This document shows, in pieces, positions 6,822-24,356 of a stretch of DNA of 64,000 nt. The stretch comes from an uncultured Gammaproteobacteria bacterium (GTDB taxonomy: Bacteria; Pseudomonadota; Gammaproteobacteria; Arenicellales; JAANXG01). The stretch covers positions 1 through 64,000 of the forward strand of contig CAMYKK010000007.1 of the NCBI GenBank assembly GCA_947258975.1, written 5' to 3'. The position numbers and the translations under genes were made by a program. How positions within the stretch are numbered: position 1 is the stretch's first letter; each line of letters opens with the position of its first letter. Under the pieces are notes generated by a model. It did no database searches, was not told the origin of the DNA, and worked only from the letters and a program-made list of their open reading frames with translations.

Positions 6822-7936
6822 ACATTCTCTTAGTTACCAGAGCGCTTGAAGAGGGCGGCGCGGAACGGCAGCTCACGGTTCTGGCAAAAGGGCTCCAGAC
6901 ACGCGGCCACGATATCAGTGTCGCGGTGTTCTATGCCGGTGGGCGGTTTATGGATGAGCTTCTAAGGTCCAAAGTCACCGTACATGACCTGAAAAAGACC
7001 GGCAGATGGGAAGTGATTCCATTCCTGGTTCGATTTGCACGCTTACTAAGGCGCACCAAACCGGACGTGATTTACGGATTTTTGAGCCTGCCGAATATTT
7101 TGGCGGTGCTGTTTCATCGGTTCGTACCGCACGCTAAGGTGATATTCGGTATTCGCGCAACACAGTTGGAACTGCAACATTACGATCCGCTGGTGGGATG
7201 GGTTTACAAACTGGAGAGCATCCTTGCGCGGTATAGTGATCTCGTTATCGTGAACTCCGAAGCGGGTCGCCGGGATTGTGAACGGCAGTCGTTTCCGGTA
7301 TCGAAGTTGCACGTGATTTCTAACGGCATTGACACCGATTATTTCACACACGACCCGGATGCCGGAGAAAGATTTCGCGCGCAACATGGTGTGCGCAGAG
7401 AAGAAAGACTGGTTGGGATAGTGGGCCGTCTGGATCCCATGAAGGATCACACGACCTTTCTAAACATTGTTTCGCAAGTTTCAAAACGCTTGCCGGATTT
7501 GAAGGCGTTGGTTGTCGGTGCGGGACCCGATAATTATCGCGCAGAGTTGAGGCGTCTGGCGGATGATTTGGGCATCGGCGGTCGAGTGATCTGGCAGCGG
7601 CCGACGGAAATGATGGCGGAAGTCTATAACGCTATCGATGTCCTGGTGTCATCTTCCAGTTTCGGCGAGGGATTTCCCAATGTCGTGGCCGAAGCGATGG
7701 CGTGCGAGACACCCTGTGTGGTCACCCGCGTTGGGGACTCCGCCGAGATTGTCGCCGAACACGGTTACGTCGCGGCGCCGGGAAATGTTGACGAGCTCAG
7801 TACCGGGCTCTACCAACTGTTGACCAACGGAAACTCGAGGGAAATCGGCAGGCTCGCACGTGAGCGCATTGTTGCGCGTTATTCAGTGGACAAGTGTGTA
7901 GATGCTACCGAGGCCGCGCTATGCACCAAGGGTTGA
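6818..7936 (+). CDS. GT4-type glycosyltransferase
   Basis: A 372-residue GT4 glycosyltransferase. The N-terminal loop EEGGAERQLTVLAKGL is at about residues 11-26. The donor domain has VGIVGRLDPMKDHTTFL (about 199-215) and SSSFGEGFPNVVAEAMAC (about 273-290), including the two glutamates of the E-x7-E type motif. Translation from GTG 6818 overlaps the stop of the decayed methyltransferase (GTGA), and its own 3' end overlaps the next gene by 16 bases, as expected in a tightly packed operon. Composition shifts to GC-richer coding here compared with the first 6 kb. It resembles the protein at 10435 in the C-terminal half. The sugar is unknown. Confidence 0.88.
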   Translation: MNILLVTRALEEGGAERQLTVLAKGLQTRGHDISVAVFYAGGRFMDELLRSKVTVHDLKKTGRWEVIPFLVRFARLLRRTKPDVIYGFLSLPNILAVLFHRFVPHAKVIFGIRATQLELQHYDPLVGWVYKLESILARYSDLVIVNSEAGRRDCERQSFPVSKLHVISNGIDTDYFTHDPDAGERFRAQHGVRREERLVGIVGRLDPMKDHTTFLNIVSQVSKRLPDLKALVVGAGPDNYRAELRRLADDLGIGGRVIWQRPTEMMAEVYNAIDVLVSSSSFGEGFPNVVAEAMACETPCVVTRVGDSAEIVAEHGYVAAPGNVDELSTGLYQLLTNGNSREIGRLARERIVARYSVDKCVDATEAALCTKG

Positions 7937-9087
7937 CCCCCGAGCTGCTGACGATTGCAGGCGCGACCTGGTTGATCTCGACGGCAATCGTTGCCCGTCC
8001 GTTAGGTCTGAAGTGGGCGGCCGCCGCGGCCGCGCTGAAGATTGGAATCCTGGTGCTTTATTTCGGATGGTTTTACGACGGGACTTGGACAATTAAGGAC
8101 GATTTCGAGTATCACGAACAGGCGCGCATCTTACTGGACTCGCAATGGAATCCTTTGGTCCTGCTTCTCACGAACTCGGGTATTGAGACGTTAATAGAAA
8201 CCACTGACCGCAGCCGGCATATCTTATACACCTGGTGGGTGTACTCGGCGCAGTACATCTTTGGGCGCGAGTATTATGCCCCGGTTTTCATGAATGTCGC
8301 GCTGACGTTTGCCGCCGCGGTCATGCTGTATAAACTCGCGGCTATGGAAGGATTTTTACAACAGTACAACAAAGGATTGCTGTTGTTTTTTCTGTTTCAT
8401 TGGGACGTGTTGGCCTGGTCGTCCTTGGTCAGTATCAAAGATTGCCTGGTACTGGTGATGACACTCGGCGCTTTTTTCCTAATATGGCCGATGATAAAGA
8501 AGCCGCGACTAGACGCAGCGAGGATCGCGGCATTGCTTGGTGTCGCAGTGATAGCGTACGCGATGACCTTCTTGAGGTTTTACATTCCGGTACTGATGCT
8601 CGTTGCAGTGTCAATTTATTATTTTCTGCACGTGGACCGGGCGCGCAAATATCGTTTCCTGCTGGGTGCGAGCGTCGTCATCGTCGGCATTATTCTGTTT
8701 ACACCATTGATTCAGTTTCACATTGAAAAGGATGTAGTGTTGGACGGTAAACAATACCTGATCGGGCTCGTCCGTTTCCCGCTCACTCCGCGCCCGTGGT
8801 CTCTCGAACCTGCATACACGTTTCTTTTTGCGCCGGCGGTGTTGCACTGGGCGTTTATCGTGCCTGCGATGATCGGGGCTTATCACTTGTGGAACCGGTC
8901 GCAGCTGGCCCGTTTATTGATCATTTATCTGGTGGTGATAATCGGTTTTTACGCCATCGTCGAGGTGCTGCAGAATACCCGGCAGCGGTTTCAGGTCACC
9001 TATATTCTGGCCTGGCTGCAGTTTCAGTTCATTGTGTTGGTGTTCGATCGGTTTAAGTTTCGCGGCTCTTCGGCGCGTCCCGTGTAG
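7921..9087 (+). CDS. Polytopic membrane protein, candidate glycan polymerase or GT-C enzyme
   Basis: A 388-residue integral membrane protein with roughly ten hydrophobic segments. I choose ATG 7921, overlapping the upstream gene by 16 bases, rather than an upstream GTG at 7894 that adds a non-hydrophobic extension. The first long loop holds KDDFEYHEQ (about residues 59-67). A later segment has SLVSIKDCLVL and then RFPLTPRPWSLEPAY in what would be a periplasmic loop. The next protein (9138) has the same three features in the same order, so the pair appear to be distant homologues. I do not recognise the family by name. Position in a glycan cluster and topology suggest Wzy-like polymerisation or lipid-linked sugar transfer. 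No flippase features are visible. Confidence 0.75.
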   Translation: MHQGLTPELLTIAGATWLISTAIVARPLGLKWAAAAAALKIGILVLYFGWFYDGTWTIKDDFEYHEQARILLDSQWNPLVLLLTNSGIETLIETTDRSRHILYTWWVYSAQYIFGREYYAPVFMNVALTFAAAVMLYKLAAMEGFLQQYNKGLLLFFLFHWDVLAWSSLVSIKDCLVLVMTLGAFFLIWPMIKKPRLDAARIAALLGVAVIAYAMTFLRFYIPVLMLVAVSIYYFLHVDRARKYRFLLGASVVIVGIILFTPLIQFHIEKDVVLDGKQYLIGLVRFPLTPRPWSLEPAYTFLFAPAVLHWAFIVPAMIGAYHLWNRSQLARLLIIYLVVIIGFYAIVEVLQNTRQRFQVTYILAWLQFQFIVLVFDRFKFRGSSARPV

Positions 9088-17116: not shown

Positions 17117-19123
17117 ATGATCTATTTTTTTCTTTTTATTTGGCACCTTTTTATCCCGGGCTGGTTGCTTGTTCAGCTGCTGCGGCTAAGAACGCTACGT
17201 GTGTTGGCTGCATTTGCATTGTCGTATTTCTTGCTTTTACTGAATCTTGTCCCTTTCAAGTACGTCGGTGGGCGAGTGGATTCATTCGCGCTGTTGGTCA
17301 ATCTGGAAATCCTGCTATTTGGTATCGTGCTGTTTTGGCGTACGAGAGTAACTAATCAGCGGCGATCGCCTTTGCGTCCAAGCAGCTTGGGCGTGGGAAT
17401 TATCCGTCTACGCAATGTGTTGAGTGGGAATAGGGATCTCGCATATCGGGCAGTAGCGGGTGCGGCGGTTATCCTGTTAGTGGTGGCTTACCTGGCTTAT
17501 GCAGGTCCTTATACGGAGATCCCTGCGGATGCGTGGCACCACATGGGAGAATTTCAACGGCAGTATAACGATATCCAACGCGGTTGGATTCAGCCGCTTT
17601 CGGAATTAGGGCTTGTCTTCTCAAAATACGCGGGGTACTGGTATTTCATTCATGCGTATCTCGCCCACCTGTCGGGCTTCACAATCCCTGAGTCGATCTT
17701 GCTTGTGACAATCGCTACAACGGTCTCGTTTTTAATTGGCATATACGTTTTCGCGTTGTTTGTATTCGAGGGGGGAACATCTGCGGAACGAGAGACGGTC
17801 GTCGTAGCTGGATTGACCGTGGTGCTGTACCTACTTCACTTTGGGGTGAATATATTTTCCTACGTGCGTTATTACGCTTTTGCGCCCAGCATCCTTAACT
17901 TCATAATCTATTTTTCGGCCGTCGGATTGGCGATCCAATACCTGCGTGGTGATCTGGGCGGCGCCAGAACTGCCATAATATTGACAATTCATATCATTGT
18001 TTTGGGACTGGTGCACGCGCAGGAGGCCTTGTTTGCAGTGGTGATGTCTGTGCTACTCGTTTTTTATTATTTTCTCTCTACCCATCGGATGCCAGAGACT
18101 ACAGATAAGGAAATCCTCGCAGTGCATACGAGTGACAGATTAGACAACACCTACAGGCGCCTCAAAATAGTCTTTTGGTGTGTCACAACAGTGCTGGTCA
18201 TCTTATTAGGGTATTCCTATCTAAATCTCGAAAGGCACCACCCATTAGAGCACGGGCGCCTTATACCGTTGGAGACCATCCTGCCTGTCATTAGGCACAT
18301 GTATATACTTGATCCAACGCGCGACTTTTACCAGACCCTCACCGCATGGGGCGTTCTAGTCTATGCCGGGTTCTTTATGTTATTTAAAGAATTACGCGCA
18401 TATCCGTTTATTGTCGTCGGGATGCTGTCACCATTGCTCACCGTTTTCAACCCGGTGTTTACGGATTTCTTCTTACGCTACTCGTGGCCCGACCTGATGT
18501 GGCGTATGTGTTATCTTATTCCGCTTCCGTTTGCGGGAGCCTATCTGTTTCTTCGGTGCTACAAAGCGCTCCGGCATCACAATAATTATCTCGTAAAATT
18601 CGCATCAGCTGTCTCGTTGGTGCTGCTGATTGCCGCACTGTTTCCTGTCAACGCAAAATATGTCGAAGCAAAATACAGCCGCATGTACACGCTCGCACCG
18701 GTGAAAGAGGGAAACAATTATGGAATATGGAGCGATTTGATCTCATTTATCAGAACGGAGCCAGTCAAAGGTATCTTGACTGACCCGGTGACCGGCTACG
18801 TGTTAAGAGGATTGACGGGAAGGCATTATGAGGGATATAAGTTTCATCGGGTACAATCCATTCCGTTGAATTATGATGCGTATGATGAGCGTAGTTTTTC
18901 TCGGTACACGAATGGTTGGGTGTTAGTAATAAACAGGCGCAACGGTTCGATTAGTCAAAACGGTCGGCTGTCGGGGCACTGGCCGGCACATGCGCTGCAA
19001 GTCGCAGAATTTTATTCACAAAAGCTAATTGATCACATTGCCGACAGTCCGACTATCTTCATCAACATCTGGCAGAATGACGGGATAACAGTTTATCGTA
19101 TATCAAATCCGACGTCAGACTAG
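17117..19123 (+). CDS. Large polytopic membrane protein, probable GT-C type
   Basis: A 668-residue integral membrane protein with about twelve to thirteen hydrophobic segments and a C-terminal soluble domain of about 130 residues after the last span. The first big loop has YTEIPADAWHHMGEF (about residues 132-146), an acidic and histidine-rich site as seen in the first periplasmic loop of GT-C enzymes. Later loops contain DPTRDFYQTLTAWG and NPVFTDFFLRYSWPD. I do not recognise a named family. Size, topology and position behind the initiating transferase suggest a lipid-linked sugar-using glycosyltransferase or a polymerase/ligase. It starts at ATG 17117, 26 bases after the previous stop, and is followed by a 422-base gap. 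Confidence 0.72.
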   Translation: MIYFFLFIWHLFIPGWLLVQLLRLRTLRVLAAFALSYFLLLLNLVPFKYVGGRVDSFALLVNLEILLFGIVLFWRTRVTNQRRSPLRPSSLGVGIIRLRNVLSGNRDLAYRAVAGAAVILLVVAYLAYAGPYTEIPADAWHHMGEFQRQYNDIQRGWIQPLSELGLVFSKYAGYWYFIHAYLAHLSGFTIPESILLVTIATTVSFLIGIYVFALFVFEGGTSAERETVVVAGLTVVLYLLHFGVNIFSYVRYYAFAPSILNFIIYFSAVGLAIQYLRGDLGGARTAIILTIHIIVLGLVHAQEALFAVVMSVLLVFYYFLSTHRMPETTDKEILAVHTSDRLDNTYRRLKIVFWCVTTVLVILLGYSYLNLERHHPLEHGRLIPLETILPVIRHMYILDPTRDFYQTLTAWGVLVYAGFFMLFKELRAYPFIVVGMLSPLLTVFNPVFTDFFLRYSWPDLMWRMCYLIPLPFAGAYLFLRCYKALRHHNNYLVKFASAVSLVLLIAALFPVNAKYVEAKYSRMYTLAPVKEGNNYGIWSDLISFIRTEPVKGILTDPVTGYVLRGLTGRHYEGYKFHRVQSIPLNYDAYDERSFSRYTNGWVLVINRRNGSISQNGRLSGHWPAHALQVAEFYSQKLIDHIADSPTIFINIWQNDGITVYRISNPTSD

Positions 19124-19545
19124 ACGCCGGGTGTCCCCGTGGACAATTTACGGGTTAGCCGCTGCTTGTTGACCCTTTGGTCTATTCTTCGAGGTTTAAT
19201 TTCGTCTAATTCGTAAAGCGATTCGCGATTGTACAGCTTTGCCGAGGACCATTTATGGATATGCTATCTCTCACAACCCCGAACAACTGAGTTAATTTCG
19301 AAGAAAACGTTTTCTCTAACCATAACAAAATCGTGCTGACATTTTGTAGCGATATGTTGATTGGGGGAATATTCCATCATAATCGCCATTATTTTGATCG
19401 TGACTCAAGTGTGCTGCAAAGTGCCTTATCGGACTGGCTATTGAATCTTGTAGAATAACCCTGAACCCGCGGAAAAATCGATATAGTGCTATGAACCCCC
19501 AATTCGACGTTACCGTATAGCACTCGCGTTCCTGCTTGACCCGAG
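19124..19545 (+). other. Intergenic region, 422 bases
   Basis: No coding frame with family resemblance is visible here. The only local structure is a 14-base palindrome AGAAAACGTTTTCT at 19302-19315, which could be an operator or chance. There is no terminator-like hairpin with a T-run after the preceding gene. The region is AT-rich, so a promoter for the following gene may be present, but I cannot name a convincing one. Confidence 0.45.
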
Positions 19546-20910
19546 ATGATCGCAGCACTAGATACAAGGATGACCGCCCTGATTCTACTGTTCGGTGCTG
19601 CAACCTGTCTGTTTCTTGTGAATCAGCAAGTGCCTATGTTTGCTGATGATTTATGTCGTGCTCATCATGACTTCAGTCTAGAGCGTGCTATTGGTTATGC
19701 ATGGGGTGAGTATATGGGCTGGTCCGGTCGCTATCCCGTAATGTTGATTAACAATATGCTGTTCTCAGGCGATGGCACGGGTCTGATAGTATTGTCCTTA
19801 CTGAATAGTGCGATTCTGGTTTTTTTGGGCTGGTTTATCGTGGTTCAGTTGGGGCGCAAAAGCGAGCTTGCAAATGTTTGTTTGCTGCTCGCGTTTGCGG
19901 CGTTGACCTGGTTCAGCGCACGCAGTTTCGGCGAAGCCGTATTTTGGAAAACCGGCTCGGTCCAGTATTTCTGGGGCACGGTATTGGCCATTGTTCTAGT
20001 CCTGCCTATGGCTCAATTGGCCAGTGGAATGTGCCTGCGCCGACCTGGGGTGACAAGTCGAACGGTTTTCATTTTCGCCTGCCTGATCGGGGGCGCTTGG
20101 CTCGAGAACATGTCCGTTGCAGTGGTGGCCGTGGGTCTGATGCTGTTGGTTTACGCCAGGTTCATAGCCAAAACACGCATGCCCAGATGGATTGTGGCGG
20201 GTTTCGTGGCCTGGATTTTAGGAACAGTCGTATTACTGGCGGCGCCAGGAAACTATGTTCGGGTTGAGGTAGTGAATCGATACGAGCCGGTCGTGTCCAA
20301 GGTTCTCGGCATAACGTCTTATCTTCTACTTCATATGGATCCACTGATAATGTTAACTATGATCGGCTTTCTAGTGATCGCCGTATTAAGTCGACCGCCG
20401 GAATATCAAAGAAATCTATTGTTGGCGATAATTTTGTTTGGTACGGGTGTTATAGCGGCCTACGCGACGATCGGGGCGCCGGTAATGGTATTCAAAGGTC
20501 GCCTGGCGTTTCCAACCCAAGTGTTCTTCGTCCTCTCTGCTCTGGCAATATTCCCCCACCAGTTGTTTAGCGAAGGTTTGGGTCGCTGCCAGAAAATCTC
20601 GCGTACCGCACTGATGGCCATTACACTGATTGTGGCTATCTATATGCTAGTTGATGGACGCACGATTTACCGAGAATATCGTAGTATCGCGAACCAGGAA
20701 GCTAAACGACAAGAAATGATTGCAGAGGCAGTCAACAATAAATTGACCACACTGAAATTGCCAGCGCTTTACTTCAACAGTAAATTTCACACAAGAGGTC
20801 GCGAGGTAAACCACGGTCGTCGCTTTGCGAGAGATATTACATTTGATCCTAATTATTTCACGAATAACTGTTACGCAAAGTACTTTGGATTAAAAAAGGT
20901 CGTTTTATAG
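19546..20910 (+). CDS. DUF6056-like membrane protein, possible GT-C glycosyltransferase
   Basis: A 454-residue membrane protein with about ten spans. After the first span is VPMFADDLCRAHHD (about residues 28-41), where the acidic pair resembles the catalytic DD/DE of GT-C enzymes. GWSGRYPVMLINNMLFS (about 59-75) matches the W-x-GR pattern of DUF6056-type proteins. A large periplasmic C-terminal tail of about 70 residues follows the last span. ATG 19546 and ATG 19570 are both possible starts. DUF6056-type members are often found near surface-polysaccharide genes, but their reaction is not established. It lies alone after a 422-base gap and closes the glycan region. Confidence 0.7.
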   Translation: MIAALDTRMTALILLFGAATCLFLVNQQVPMFADDLCRAHHDFSLERAIGYAWGEYMGWSGRYPVMLINNMLFSGDGTGLIVLSLLNSAILVFLGWFIVVQLGRKSELANVCLLLAFAALTWFSARSFGEAVFWKTGSVQYFWGTVLAIVLVLPMAQLASGMCLRRPGVTSRTVFIFACLIGGAWLENMSVAVVAVGLMLLVYARFIAKTRMPRWIVAGFVAWILGTVVLLAAPGNYVRVEVVNRYEPVVSKVLGITSYLLLHMDPLIMLTMIGFLVIAVLSRPPEYQRNLLLAIILFGTGVIAAYATIGAPVMVFKGRLAFPTQVFFVLSALAIFPHQLFSEGLGRCQKISRTALMAITLIVAIYMLVDGRTIYREYRSIANQEAKRQEMIAEAVNNKLTTLKLPALYFNSKFHTRGREVNHGRRFARDITFDPNYFTNNCYAKYFGLKKVVL

Positions 20911-21154: not shown

Positions 21155-22630
21155 TTAAAGAGATGTGGCTTTTTCAGCGACGATTTTCCAGCGATCGTCT
21201 TCGTGCCGCAAAGACAATGTTTTTCTTGTTTTGTCCTGATACAAATCCGATTTGTATTCTTGTATAAAAGAAACGAAAGCCGCGGCTTCACTGTGTTTGT
21301 CTATTTTCAAGTTGTTAATCCGTATTTCAATGGCTGTCGGCTTGCTCAGGCGAGCCCTCCGATAACGCCGCCATTGTTCAACATTCATACCGCTCTTTGG
21401 TGCGAAGTTTTCGGAGTAGAATCCCAGATACGCGTCAACATCCTTGCTTGACCACGCCTTACTCCATTTGGAGACAAGGTTTTTTATGGCGGTGGTCGCG
21501 AGCACTTTTGAGTTCACGGCGTCGGGTGCGTCAATTGCGCTACCAGAAAACATCTTGCTCGCAGTTGTTGGCTCAGCTTTGGCGATTTCTGCGGTGCTGG
21601 GGATTGGCCTTGGCTCAGCAACCGGCTCTGCCTTTGGAATCCCTTCCAGCGCCGGTGGAACTAAAGGTTGTAAGATCTGTTCCAGTAGCATCTTGGAGTG
21701 TTCATCCGCAATAAGCCAGCCGTTATCCGTCAGTAGCAGGATCAAGCGAATATCGAAATATGCGTGTTTATTGCTGTCTTCCAATTTTTCATTTAGTGTC
21801 ACTTCCGCCAGATTTTGTCCAGGGAAGACCACATTGACGTTTGTTATTGTTACTTTCTTTGGTTCTCTGAATTCCTCTAGCCATTGTTCTTTCGTGAGGC
21901 CTCTTTTCTCCCAAATATCCCGCCTGTAAGTCGTCACCACTCCCTCGATGTCTGCCTCCGCTCTCGCATCGGCCCAAAACTGTATCAATTCCTCGATTTT
22001 TTCCGTGTCATTTTGTTTTTCCTGTTCACTCTTGATGTACAAAAATGACTGGTAGTCCTGGGATAGATTTTGCATATGTGAAATGGAGTTCATAACGGGC
22101 TGGCTTGCGCGTTTATCGATTTTCCAACCTATAGCGGGTAAGCGTTTGAGCAGTAAACGTTCTTGAGAGTGCTGCCAGTTTTTGGATGTGCGGATCATTT
22201 GGGTGAATCGGACGCGGGCATCGTTTGGAGACGTGATCGATATGGCCGGTTGACCAATCTGCACGCTTGTGGCTTTCGGGATGAATTTTCCGTCGCCATC
22301 ATTATTCTTCGCAAAATTGCTAGTGAATAGTGCTTCATGATTATTGGGTTCCTCGAGAAGCATTGCGTGCACGTATTCGACCAATTTCTCCTTAATTGCG
22401 GATTCCTCGTTGCGGTGTAACGACGTAGATTGCGGAACTTTTGGCGCCGGCTTGTGTTTACCGGGGGCAGTTGGGGACGGAAAGAACAAGTACAACGATA
22501 CCGCCGCAATGGCCAATACCAAGACCACGGATGACAGCAAGAACCGACCATCGATGTAAGATGGGCTGGTTGACTTGAAAGGCAAATAGATACGAGCCTC
22601 AGTAGATCGCATCTGGGGCACCCCATGCAA
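21155..22630 (-). CDS. Membrane-anchored protein with three NTF2-like (SnoaL-type) domains
   Basis: A 491-residue protein. A basic N-terminus is followed by one membrane span (about residues 30-51) and a proline/lysine linker, so the bulk is probably periplasmic. Three segments then look like NTF2-like folds: about 70-165, about 200-325 (IEELIQFWADARAEADIEGV ... WLIADE) and about 380-491 (WSKAWSSKDVDAYLGFYSEN ... WKIVAE). A proline-rich linker separates the second and third. The last domain is of the kind found at the C-terminus of some L,D-transpeptidases, but no YkuD catalytic domain is present. A second Met at residue 7 is an alternative start. It is divergent from miaB and on the opposite strand to the glycan genes. 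Its function is unknown, possibly scaffolding or ligand binding at the cell wall. Confidence 0.75.
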   Translation of the reverse strand: MHGVPQMRSTEARIYLPFKSTSPSYIDGRFLLSSVVLVLAIAAVSLYLFFPSPTAPGKHKPAPKVPQSTSLHRNEESAIKEKLVEYVHAMLLEEPNNHEALFTSNFAKNNDGDGKFIPKATSVQIGQPAISITSPNDARVRFTQMIRTSKNWQHSQERLLLKRLPAIGWKIDKRASQPVMNSISHMQNLSQDYQSFLYIKSEQEKQNDTEKIEELIQFWADARAEADIEGVVTTYRRDIWEKRGLTKEQWLEEFREPKKVTITNVNVVFPGQNLAEVTLNEKLEDSNKHAYFDIRLILLLTDNGWLIADEHSKMLLEQILQPLVPPALEGIPKAEPVAEPRPIPSTAEIAKAEPTTASKMFSGSAIDAPDAVNSKVLATTAIKNLVSKWSKAWSSKDVDAYLGFYSENFAPKSGMNVEQWRRYRRARLSKPTAIEIRINNLKIDKHSEAAAFVSFIQEYKSDLYQDKTRKTLSLRHEDDRWKIVAEKATSL

Positions 22631-22961
22631 TAACGAAGTCAGCTATTCAATCGTAGCACAGCGGAATCAACCAGCGGGCGGTGCGCCAAACGGTGGCAGG
22701 GGAATCCGGGTGTATACTGCAAGCATGGCCGCTGATGACATGGTGTATTTGTAATCTATTGGTTAATGGGCATTATATCAGGCGATTTTCATCCGTTGCC
22801 GTTACTTGAGCATCGTGGTCCGACTCGGCTAGACTGTGGAGTAGACATATTGGTTTGCGATAATTGAAGCCGTTAATCCGTACTTGTTTGGTTTTAAACA
22901 CTCCCCGTGGCTATCCGCAGGCGCGGGCCGCATACCTGCGCCAATTCTACGCTCACGTCCG
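22631..22961. other. Divergent intergenic region between the NTF2-like gene and miaB
   Basis: About 331 bases separate two divergent starts, so promoters in both directions are expected. I find no near-consensus pair. A weak candidate for miaB is TTGAGC, 18 bases, then TAGACT, around 22807-22836. The miaB frame stays open upstream to 22884, but that part shows no MiaB resemblance. Confidence 0.4.
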
Positions 22962-24356
22962 GTGATTCAAAAACTCTTTATTAAGACATTTGGTTGTCAG
23001 ATGAATGAATACGACTCCATGCGTATGATTGATACGCTGCGTGAGTCACATCGTTTGGAGATCACCGCTGATCTCGCCGCGGCGGATGTGTTGATACTCA
23101 ATACATGTTCCGTGCGCGAAAAAGCGCAGGATAAGGTGTTCTCCCAACTGGGACGGTGGCGTGAGCTCAAGGAGCAGCGGCCCGAGTTGATCATTGGCGT
23201 GGGCGGCTGTGTTGCCAGTCAGGAAGGCCGGCAGATCCTGGAACGTGCGCCCTATGTCGACATTATTTTTGGTCCGCAGACCCTGCATCGATTACCGGCG
23301 TTGATCGATGAGACCATCCGCACTCGTCAACCCAGCGTCAGCATAGACTTCCCTGAGATTGAGAAATTTGACAATTTGCCGCCGCCCCAGATCGATAATG
23401 TGAGCGCCTACGTGTCGGTAATGGAGGGATGCAGTAAGTATTGCACTTTCTGTGTCGTTCCATATACCCGTGGTGAAGAGTTTAGTCGTCCGTTCGATGA
23501 TGTAGTTGAAGAGATCGTGAATCTCTCCGAACAAGGTGTTCGGGAAGTGACTTTATTGGGTCAAAATGTCAATGGATATCGGGGTCGCATGCACAATGGC
23601 CGTATCGTCGATTTCGCATTGTTATTACTATACGTATCCGAGATTGACGGCATTGACCGCATCCGCTACACCACGTCGCATCCATTTGAATTCAATGACA
23701 GCTTGATTGAAGCGTACGCGGAACTGCCTAAATTAGTTAGTCACGTGCATTTACCGGTGCAGAGCGGATCGGATCGTATTCTCGGTGCGATGAAACGTCA
23801 GTACACGGCGGCTCAATACATACTGTTGGCGAAACGTCTGCGTGAAAAGCGGCCGAACATCAGCATCTCCAGCGATTTCATCGTTGGATTTCCGGGGGAG
23901 ACCGACGAAGATTTCGCCGCAACGATGCAACTAATTGAACAGGTGCGCTTCGACCAATCATTTAGCTTCCTATATAGCGCGCGGCCAGGTACGCCAGCAT
24001 CCACCTTGTCGGATGATGTGCCGCAACAAATCAAACAACGGCGGTTGGCGTTGTTGCAAGCGCGTATCAACGAATTGGGGCGAGATATCAGCAATCGGAT
24101 GATAGGCACCGAGCAGAGGATTTTGGTAGATCGTCCAGCCAAGAAGAATCCCAGCCAGTTATCCGGAAGAACCGAGAATAATCGTGTCGTAAACTTCGAT
24201 GGACCGCGTGGGTTGATGGGGCGGTTTGTCGACGTCGAGATCACCATGGCGCTTCCCAATTCATTACGCGGTAGGTATCTAGGCTGTGAGTCAACCGTCA
24301 GTAATTACCTGCCGCCGCAAAAATCTATCCTAGCGAAGCCGTCGCCGATATCGTGA
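22962..24356 (+). CDS. miaB: tRNA-2-methylthio-N6-dimethylallyladenosine synthase
   Basis: MiaB is a radical SAM methylthiotransferase that converts i6A37 to ms2i6A37 in tRNAs reading UNN codons. The N-terminal UPF0004 domain has its three iron-sulfur cysteines in [20 protein letters not shown] and GGCVASQEG. The radical SAM cluster motif is [16 protein letters not shown] (Cx3Cx2C, about residues 153-168), and a TRAM domain ends the protein (about 380-445). I take GTG 22962 as start ([13 protein letters not shown]), which gives 464 residues, close to the E. coli length. The frame is open to 22884 but that extension is atypical. The stop overlaps the start of ybeZ (GTGA), the usual operon arrangement. 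Confidence 0.95.

Follow-up and report, generated by a model that had tools for sequence, protein, structure and literature searches.

We report here a gene of an uncultured gammaproteobacterium whose product consists of one N-terminal helix and three NTF2-like domains (D1, D2 and D3), without a recognised enzyme. All three domains are relatives of the Pfam family Cds6_C (PF24125), D1 and D2 distant ones. We lean, with some reserve, towards the interpretation that this is a membrane-anchored, non-catalytic peptidoglycan-binding protein, acting as a tether or an adaptor; peptidoglycan binding by D3 is suggested by the conservation of residues that were tested experimentally in its relatives. 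The gene lies in a stretch of 64,000 nucleotides, here termed the window, and its features are listed in Table 1.

Table 1. Coordinates of the three-domain gene, its parts, its conserved neighbor and proteins with two Cds6_C copies (residues counted from the TTG codon; positions in the window unless a locus is given)
Feature	Position	Strand	Basis or remark
Three-NTF2-domain gene	21155..22612	-	Likely start ATG to stop; TTG of the first-stage reading frame at 22630
Hydrophobic helix, residues 30-50 (about)	22481..22543	-	Predicted signal anchor
D1, divergent NTF2-like, residues 68-180	22091..22429	-	Profile comparison, partly structure model
D2, divergent Cds6_C-type NTF2-like, residues 204-320	21671..22021	-	Profile comparison, structure model
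Pro/Ala/Lys-rich linker, variable, residues 321-371	21518..21670	-	Weakly constrained
D3, Cds6_C (PF24125) NTF2-like, residues 376-488	21167..21505	-	Pfam match, pocket residues
miaB	22884..24356	+	Divergent neighbor of the gene in 6/6 genus genomes
Two-Cds6_C proteins (TPR + 2; YkuD + 2)	L113:4786-6270, L114:3675-4928, L115:3692-4966

The minus-strand open reading frame at 21155-22630 is genuine and encodes 491 amino acids when counted from the TTG. Among 100 relatives searched, own genome included, 39 had any match to the protein, and all five other genomes of the genus have a full-length orthologue (45-66% identity). We take the ATG at 22612 (residue 7, MRS...) as the more likely start because it corresponds to the earliest possible start codon of the frame in G005 and G002, where the orthologous reading frames picked are 485 amino acids long, and because a stretch MRVS is found near this position in the most divergent orthologue. 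Sites resembling promoters or terminators did not exceed the number expected by chance. A single N-terminal hydrophobic stretch is present in all six proteins of the genus (best Kyte-Doolittle 19-mer 2.42-2.93), with none like it later (just 0.65-1.17 past residue 70), so that a membrane anchor, as proposed in an earlier sequence-only reading of the window, is probable. We prefer an uncleaved inner-membrane anchor, since a convincing cleavage site was not seen by eye; a cleaved signal peptide is a conceivable alternative.

D3 matches Pfam Cds6_C, a domain type that ends L,D-transpeptidase or carboxypeptidase proteins, at E 2.4e-23 with 83 bits, in line with the earlier view that the last domain resembles the tail of some L,D-transpeptidases, and the NTF2-like families SnoaL_3 and Lumazine_bd_2 are likewise over their Pfam cut-offs on D3. 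YkuD, rightly described as missing, gave no Pfam match in the protein up to E 10, and no clearly catalytic family was found in it with Pfam or NCBIfam. In the domain-by-domain profile search that the same reading had proposed, D3 alone passed the Cds6_C gathering cut-off of 27 bits, but D2 remained below it (E 0.037, 14.8 bits) and D1 had no Pfam match. Searching the PDB by sequence gave no significant match for D1 (best E 0.18) or for D2 (best E 0.11).

Evidence for three related domains comes from profile comparison, in which each result was set against 60 column-shuffled controls and E-values are single-comparison values. Compared with D3, D1 gave a probability of 88.5% and D2 one of 95.2%, and 0/60 controls were as good in either case. 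The direct comparison of D1 with D2 was weak (probability 7.0%, E 0.0052, 56 columns), with 0/60 shuffles reaching the score. Using hhalign against a Cds6_C set of 42 domains plus the PDB domains of Pgp2, Csd6 and Bd1075, from which the orthologues' own D3 and D2 were excluded and in which the paralogues of the genus were kept, we obtained 93.7% for D1 (E 1.8e-7), 97.9% for D2 (E 4.8e-13) and 100% for D3 (E 1.1e-41), again with 0/60 shuffles each. With a profile of D3 made from the six orthologues, D2 is detected in 5/6 proteins at a domain E <= 1e-4, and a D1-D2 profile picks up D3 in the window protein (E 1.6e-4). The earlier count of three NTF2-like domains is upheld by these comparisons, D1 having been tested less directly than D2.

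Structure was predicted as well, as had been suggested earlier. The full-length AlphaFold model, made from two sequences, had a pLDDT of 48.5, too low for reliance; in it, secondary structure is repeated three times, and the Foldseek matches listed were mainly NTF2-like. For residues 68-326 (D1-D2) AlphaFold was given five rows; as D3 and a further Cds6_C row were aligned to D2, D1 was represented by two. The resulting model (pLDDT 74.8) shows in each domain helices and, after them, four or five strands, and its pTM of 0.48 is too low for the relative placing of D1 and D2 to be trusted. All 33 of its Foldseek matches at E <= 0.001 are or contain an NTF2-like domain (presumed for several whose titles do not state it). 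VIA-align gave Z values of up to 14.4 (rmsd 3.8, 134 aligned), mainly covering D2, and among others matched Csd6 (Z 12.8, rmsd 2.4, 113 aligned) and Bd1075 (Z 12.5, rmsd 2.4, 119 aligned). In this model, D2 clearly has an NTF2-like fold. As the aligned rows fall mostly on D2 (model 132-254), the fold of D1 rests on the profiles, the secondary structure of the model and two-domain matches such as TcpC.

All three domains are under purifying selection, and the linker and N terminus are relaxed. Nei-Gojobori omega was calculated for 15 orthologue pairs, with ranges taken from pairs with unsaturated synonymous sites, and amounted to 0.08-0.43 for D1 (9 pairs), 0.05-0.36 for D2 (10 pairs) and 0.08-0.23 for D3 (8 pairs), against 0.28-0.93 for the linker (9 pairs) and 0.30-0.91 for the N terminus (15 pairs). 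Invariant columns, counted by hand, number 39/115 in D1, 51/133 in D2 and 39/120 in D3, making D2 the most conserved domain. Together, constraint and invariant columns argue that D1 and D2 are not decaying copies.

The pocket was examined at positions tested in Pgp2 (Y233, F242, K257, K307 and E324) and Bd1075 (Y274), using an alignment of 48 Cds6_C rows from which five D2 rows found by profile had been removed beforehand. D3, which is identical to Pgp2 at 28/103 aligned positions, has Y401, F409, R424, K470 and E486 at the Pgp2 positions and Y459 at that of Bd1075. These are kept in 6/6 orthologues, with Y for F409 in one and R opposite Pgp2 K257 in all. Across the 48 rows, Y401 is Y in 44, F409 is F in 35 and Y in 6, R424 is R in 37 and K in 10, Y459 is Y in 47, and K470 and E486 are K and E throughout, as they are in Pgp2, Csd6 and Bd1075. 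Because nearly all Cds6_C rows share the six residues, they are as much a sign of the family as of the ligand of the window protein.

Opposite Pgp2 Y233, F242, K307 and E324, D2 has V231, I239, I294 and E310, with K257 in a gap; E310, invariant among the orthologues, is the only tested Pgp2 pocket residue that it retains. We considered a basic D2 residue opposite Pgp2 K307 and rejected it, as the alignment places I/T/V294 there across the orthologues and R/H295 beside it. The corresponding residues of D1, in which the third-helix region is short by some 10 residues, are H98, F106, E157 and R174, again with K257 in a gap, and the aromatic F106 is the sole tested residue retained. E157 and R174 are invariant, and a second profile alignment also sets E157 opposite K470. 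Relative to Pgp2 K307 and E324 the charges of D1 thus seem to be exchanged, a tentative assignment at the level of single residues.

Within the genomes searched, the anchored triple was seen in this genus only. The D1-D2 profile found a match in all six genus genomes and in 0/54 others of 60 relatives; in a phylum sample it matched in 4/299, namely the window genome and three partial, single-domain matches, all to proteins with a C-terminal Cds6_C (by eye, two PpiC-like and one TPR-like). Matches to the window protein outside the genus fall in D3, some extending to the linker and one, at query 273-488, as far as D2. No relative was found in two scans of viral contigs or in phage records, and in plasmids two records match, both confined to the D3 part (24-29% of query length, with E-values of 1e-6 and 3e-11). 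Cds6_C itself occurs in 38/229 genomes of a class sample (own included), 37 of them over cut-off, and three proteins of this sample carry two copies in one frame, two with YkuD and one with TPR. Tandem Cds6_C is thus already known. Of the window protein, the class scan detects D3 alone, so that further copies in other proteins, if diverged, would go unnoticed. None of the matches listed in our literature searches describes an anchored three-NTF2-like architecture, and those listed for TcaA with NTF2 contained nothing useful.

The genome of the window has Cds6_C on seven different proteins. The other six, which look like envelope proteins judging from their domains, are a YkuD-Cds6_C protein, two TPR proteins, a coiled-coil-like protein, one with a beta-lactamase fold and SH3, and one whose SPOR match stays below threshold. 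The last type is seen in a paralogue on G000 contig C88 (L047:3275-4876, minus strand) with an N-terminal hydrophobic stretch, Cds6_C in mid-protein and a C-terminal SPOR match that misses the cut-off of 21 bits (19.1 bits, E 0.0016), perhaps uniting two wall-binding modules in one protein. On G000 contig C9 (L044:7367-11185, minus strand), a frame of 1271 amino acids comprises a beta-lactamase fold, bacterial SH3, coiled-coil-like stretches and a terminal Cds6_C, and may join more than one gene. L060 and L062, PpiC/SurA-like by eye with Cds6_C at the end, come from another family of the phylum. Pairs of adjoining Cds6_C frames, one of roughly 320-380 codons and the other of roughly 395-470, recur (G611:C36, G406:C65, G500:C181 and others), possibly a TPR-Cds6_C gene beside a YkuD-Cds6_C gene.

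Of known systems, Csd6, Pgp2 and Bd1075 share with the window protein the Cds6_C domain and the tested pocket retained in D3. Csd6 and Pgp2 carry a YkuD L,D-carboxypeptidase domain, by contrast with the window protein, which lacks YkuD and has a probable membrane anchor and three copies. The proteins of G511 and G530 (YkuD) and G556 (TPR) resemble it in their tandem Cds6_C copies and differ in the presence of YkuD or TPR and in the two copies found. The NTF2-like domain of PBP2a and PBP5 (MecA_N) is wall-facing, presumably sits near the membrane anchor and was also matched by Foldseek, but is joined to a transpeptidase, and the window protein has no MecA_N match in Pfam.

The sequence-only reading saw no obvious function, which seems too pessimistic given that D3 retains the pocket residues tested for peptidoglycan binding; a scaffold, as it was called there, is possible. 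In the work on Pgp2 (PMC8038945), helical shape was lost in part or altogether when Y233, F242, K257, K307 or E324 was mutated, the pull-down with sacculi was weakened by K307A, and NMR placed peptidoglycan fragments in the pocket of the NTF2 domain. According to PMC8938487, the NTF2 domain of Bd1075 directs the enzyme to the convex face, and the Csd6-type NTF2 domain is thought to pick the enzyme's site in the wall. In our reading, the N-terminal helix would remain in the inner membrane and the remainder would be periplasmic, comprising three Cds6_C-type NTF2-like domains, as profile comparison shows and, for D2 fully and for D1 partly, the structure model too. D3, on its flexible linker, would bind peptidoglycan stem peptides in its pocket in the manner of the Pgp2 NTF2 domain. 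D1 and D2, with altered pockets yet conserved, may widen the wall contact with another specificity or may bind a partner. More speculatively, the protein could then tether the inner membrane to the wall or mark a region of the wall for a separately encoded enzyme; a YkuD-Cds6_C protein is encoded in the same genome. A more specific version, which we consider unlikely, is a multivalent wall reader in which D3 reads stem peptides, D1 with its apparently exchanged charges and D2 read another wall feature or a partner, and the whole, anchored in the membrane, recruits or orients a separate L,D-transpeptidase. Evidence counter to a wall-binding tether or adaptor is that D1 and D2 lack most pocket residues, that the top fold matches include enzymes and that three other NTF2-like models with enzyme-like or ligand-like names fall on D3, two of them Pfam models over cut-off.

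One alternative assigns D1-D2 to oligomerization or partner docking, like VirB8/TcpC or a CaMKII hub, and leaves D3 as the sole ligand binder, which is compatible with our reading of D3. Fold matches to TcpC (3ub1), VirB8-like OrfG and CaMKII hubs point this way, as do the best PDB sequence match of D1, VirB8 (4lso), though not significant at E 0.18, and the loss of most tested pocket residues from D1 and D2 when D2 is nevertheless the most conserved domain. TcpC, VirB8 and OrfG are, we assume, single-helix membrane proteins; they are, however, conjugation proteins, and the window protein has no such family match over cut-off (none to VirB8/TcpC in Pfam up to E 10), nor were secretion genes, including those of type IV systems, found among the 20 window proteins scanned. 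The structural matches are moreover scattered across the NTF2 superfamily and pick out no single function, and we regard a docking platform as rather doubtful. A tandem NTF2-like enzyme, resembling an iota-carbonic anhydrase or a dehydratase, is very improbable. Iota-carbonic anhydrase, bile-acid dehydratase and a putative scytalone dehydratase are among the top fold matches, the first being a likeness of fold alone, and two of three matching NTF2-like NCBIfam models bear enzyme-like names: TIGR02246 ("SgcJ/EcaC family oxidoreductase") matched at E 8.4e-6, its 25.8 bits falling short of the cut-off of 33.95, and TIGR02096 ("ketosteroid isomerase-related") at E 0.0038. All three NCBIfam models remain under their cut-offs, however, as does CaMKII_AD on D3 (E 0.038), and Cds6_C scores far higher.

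The neighborhood bears on a further alternative, a glycan-binding scaffold for the adjoining surface-polysaccharide cluster with pockets that hold a sugar such as pseudaminic acid, which was earlier proposed by docking as a ligand of the Csd6 pocket (PMC4599014). Glycan genes lie on the far side of the gene in the window, homologues of them in G002 and, by eye, different ones in G004 and G005; the G001 contig stops close by, and the G003 contig covers too little to tell. Neighborhoods of the orthologues, whose inspection had been suggested, nevertheless show miaB, and not glycan genes, as the neighbor kept in 6/6 genus genomes, divergent from the gene in each, and the link to a glycan cluster drawn from the window is not supported. 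Outside the genus, 10 genomes were searched, 9 had a miaB match, and no Cds6_C protein occurred within the 7-8 kb read at miaB in 8 of them (6 of the same family, 2 of the same order). PseB and PseI are over cut-off in the same two of six genus genomes, G000 and G005, and in G005 share a contig with the gene, PseB about 6 kb off; lower-scoring PseB-like matches are present in others. The protein is present in all four genomes that lack over-cut-off PseB and PseI, of which two have a completeness of 97% and the remaining two of 74 and 86%, so that pseudaminate is unlikely as a conserved ligand unless these absences are assembly gaps, and we set it aside. The Pgp2 pocket, moreover, was shown to bind peptidoglycan (PMC8038945), and a glycan scaffold appears quite unlikely. 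The cluster contains a frame of 397 amino acids (7894-9087, plus strand) with no Pfam match at E 0.001 and ends in two large proteins (17117-20910, plus strand) with DUF6541, just under cut-off, and DUF6056. The listed miaB start (TTG, 22884) is probably some 35 codons too early; orthologous frames of 455 amino acids align to 455/490 residues.

If the multivalent reader considered above were true, the half of a Csd6-type shape enzyme that does the targeting would have turned into an independent adaptor. An anchored protein with one canonical and two altered NTF2 domains would allow targeting to be studied separately from catalysis. Cds6_C is a general envelope module, as seven different proteins of one genome illustrate.
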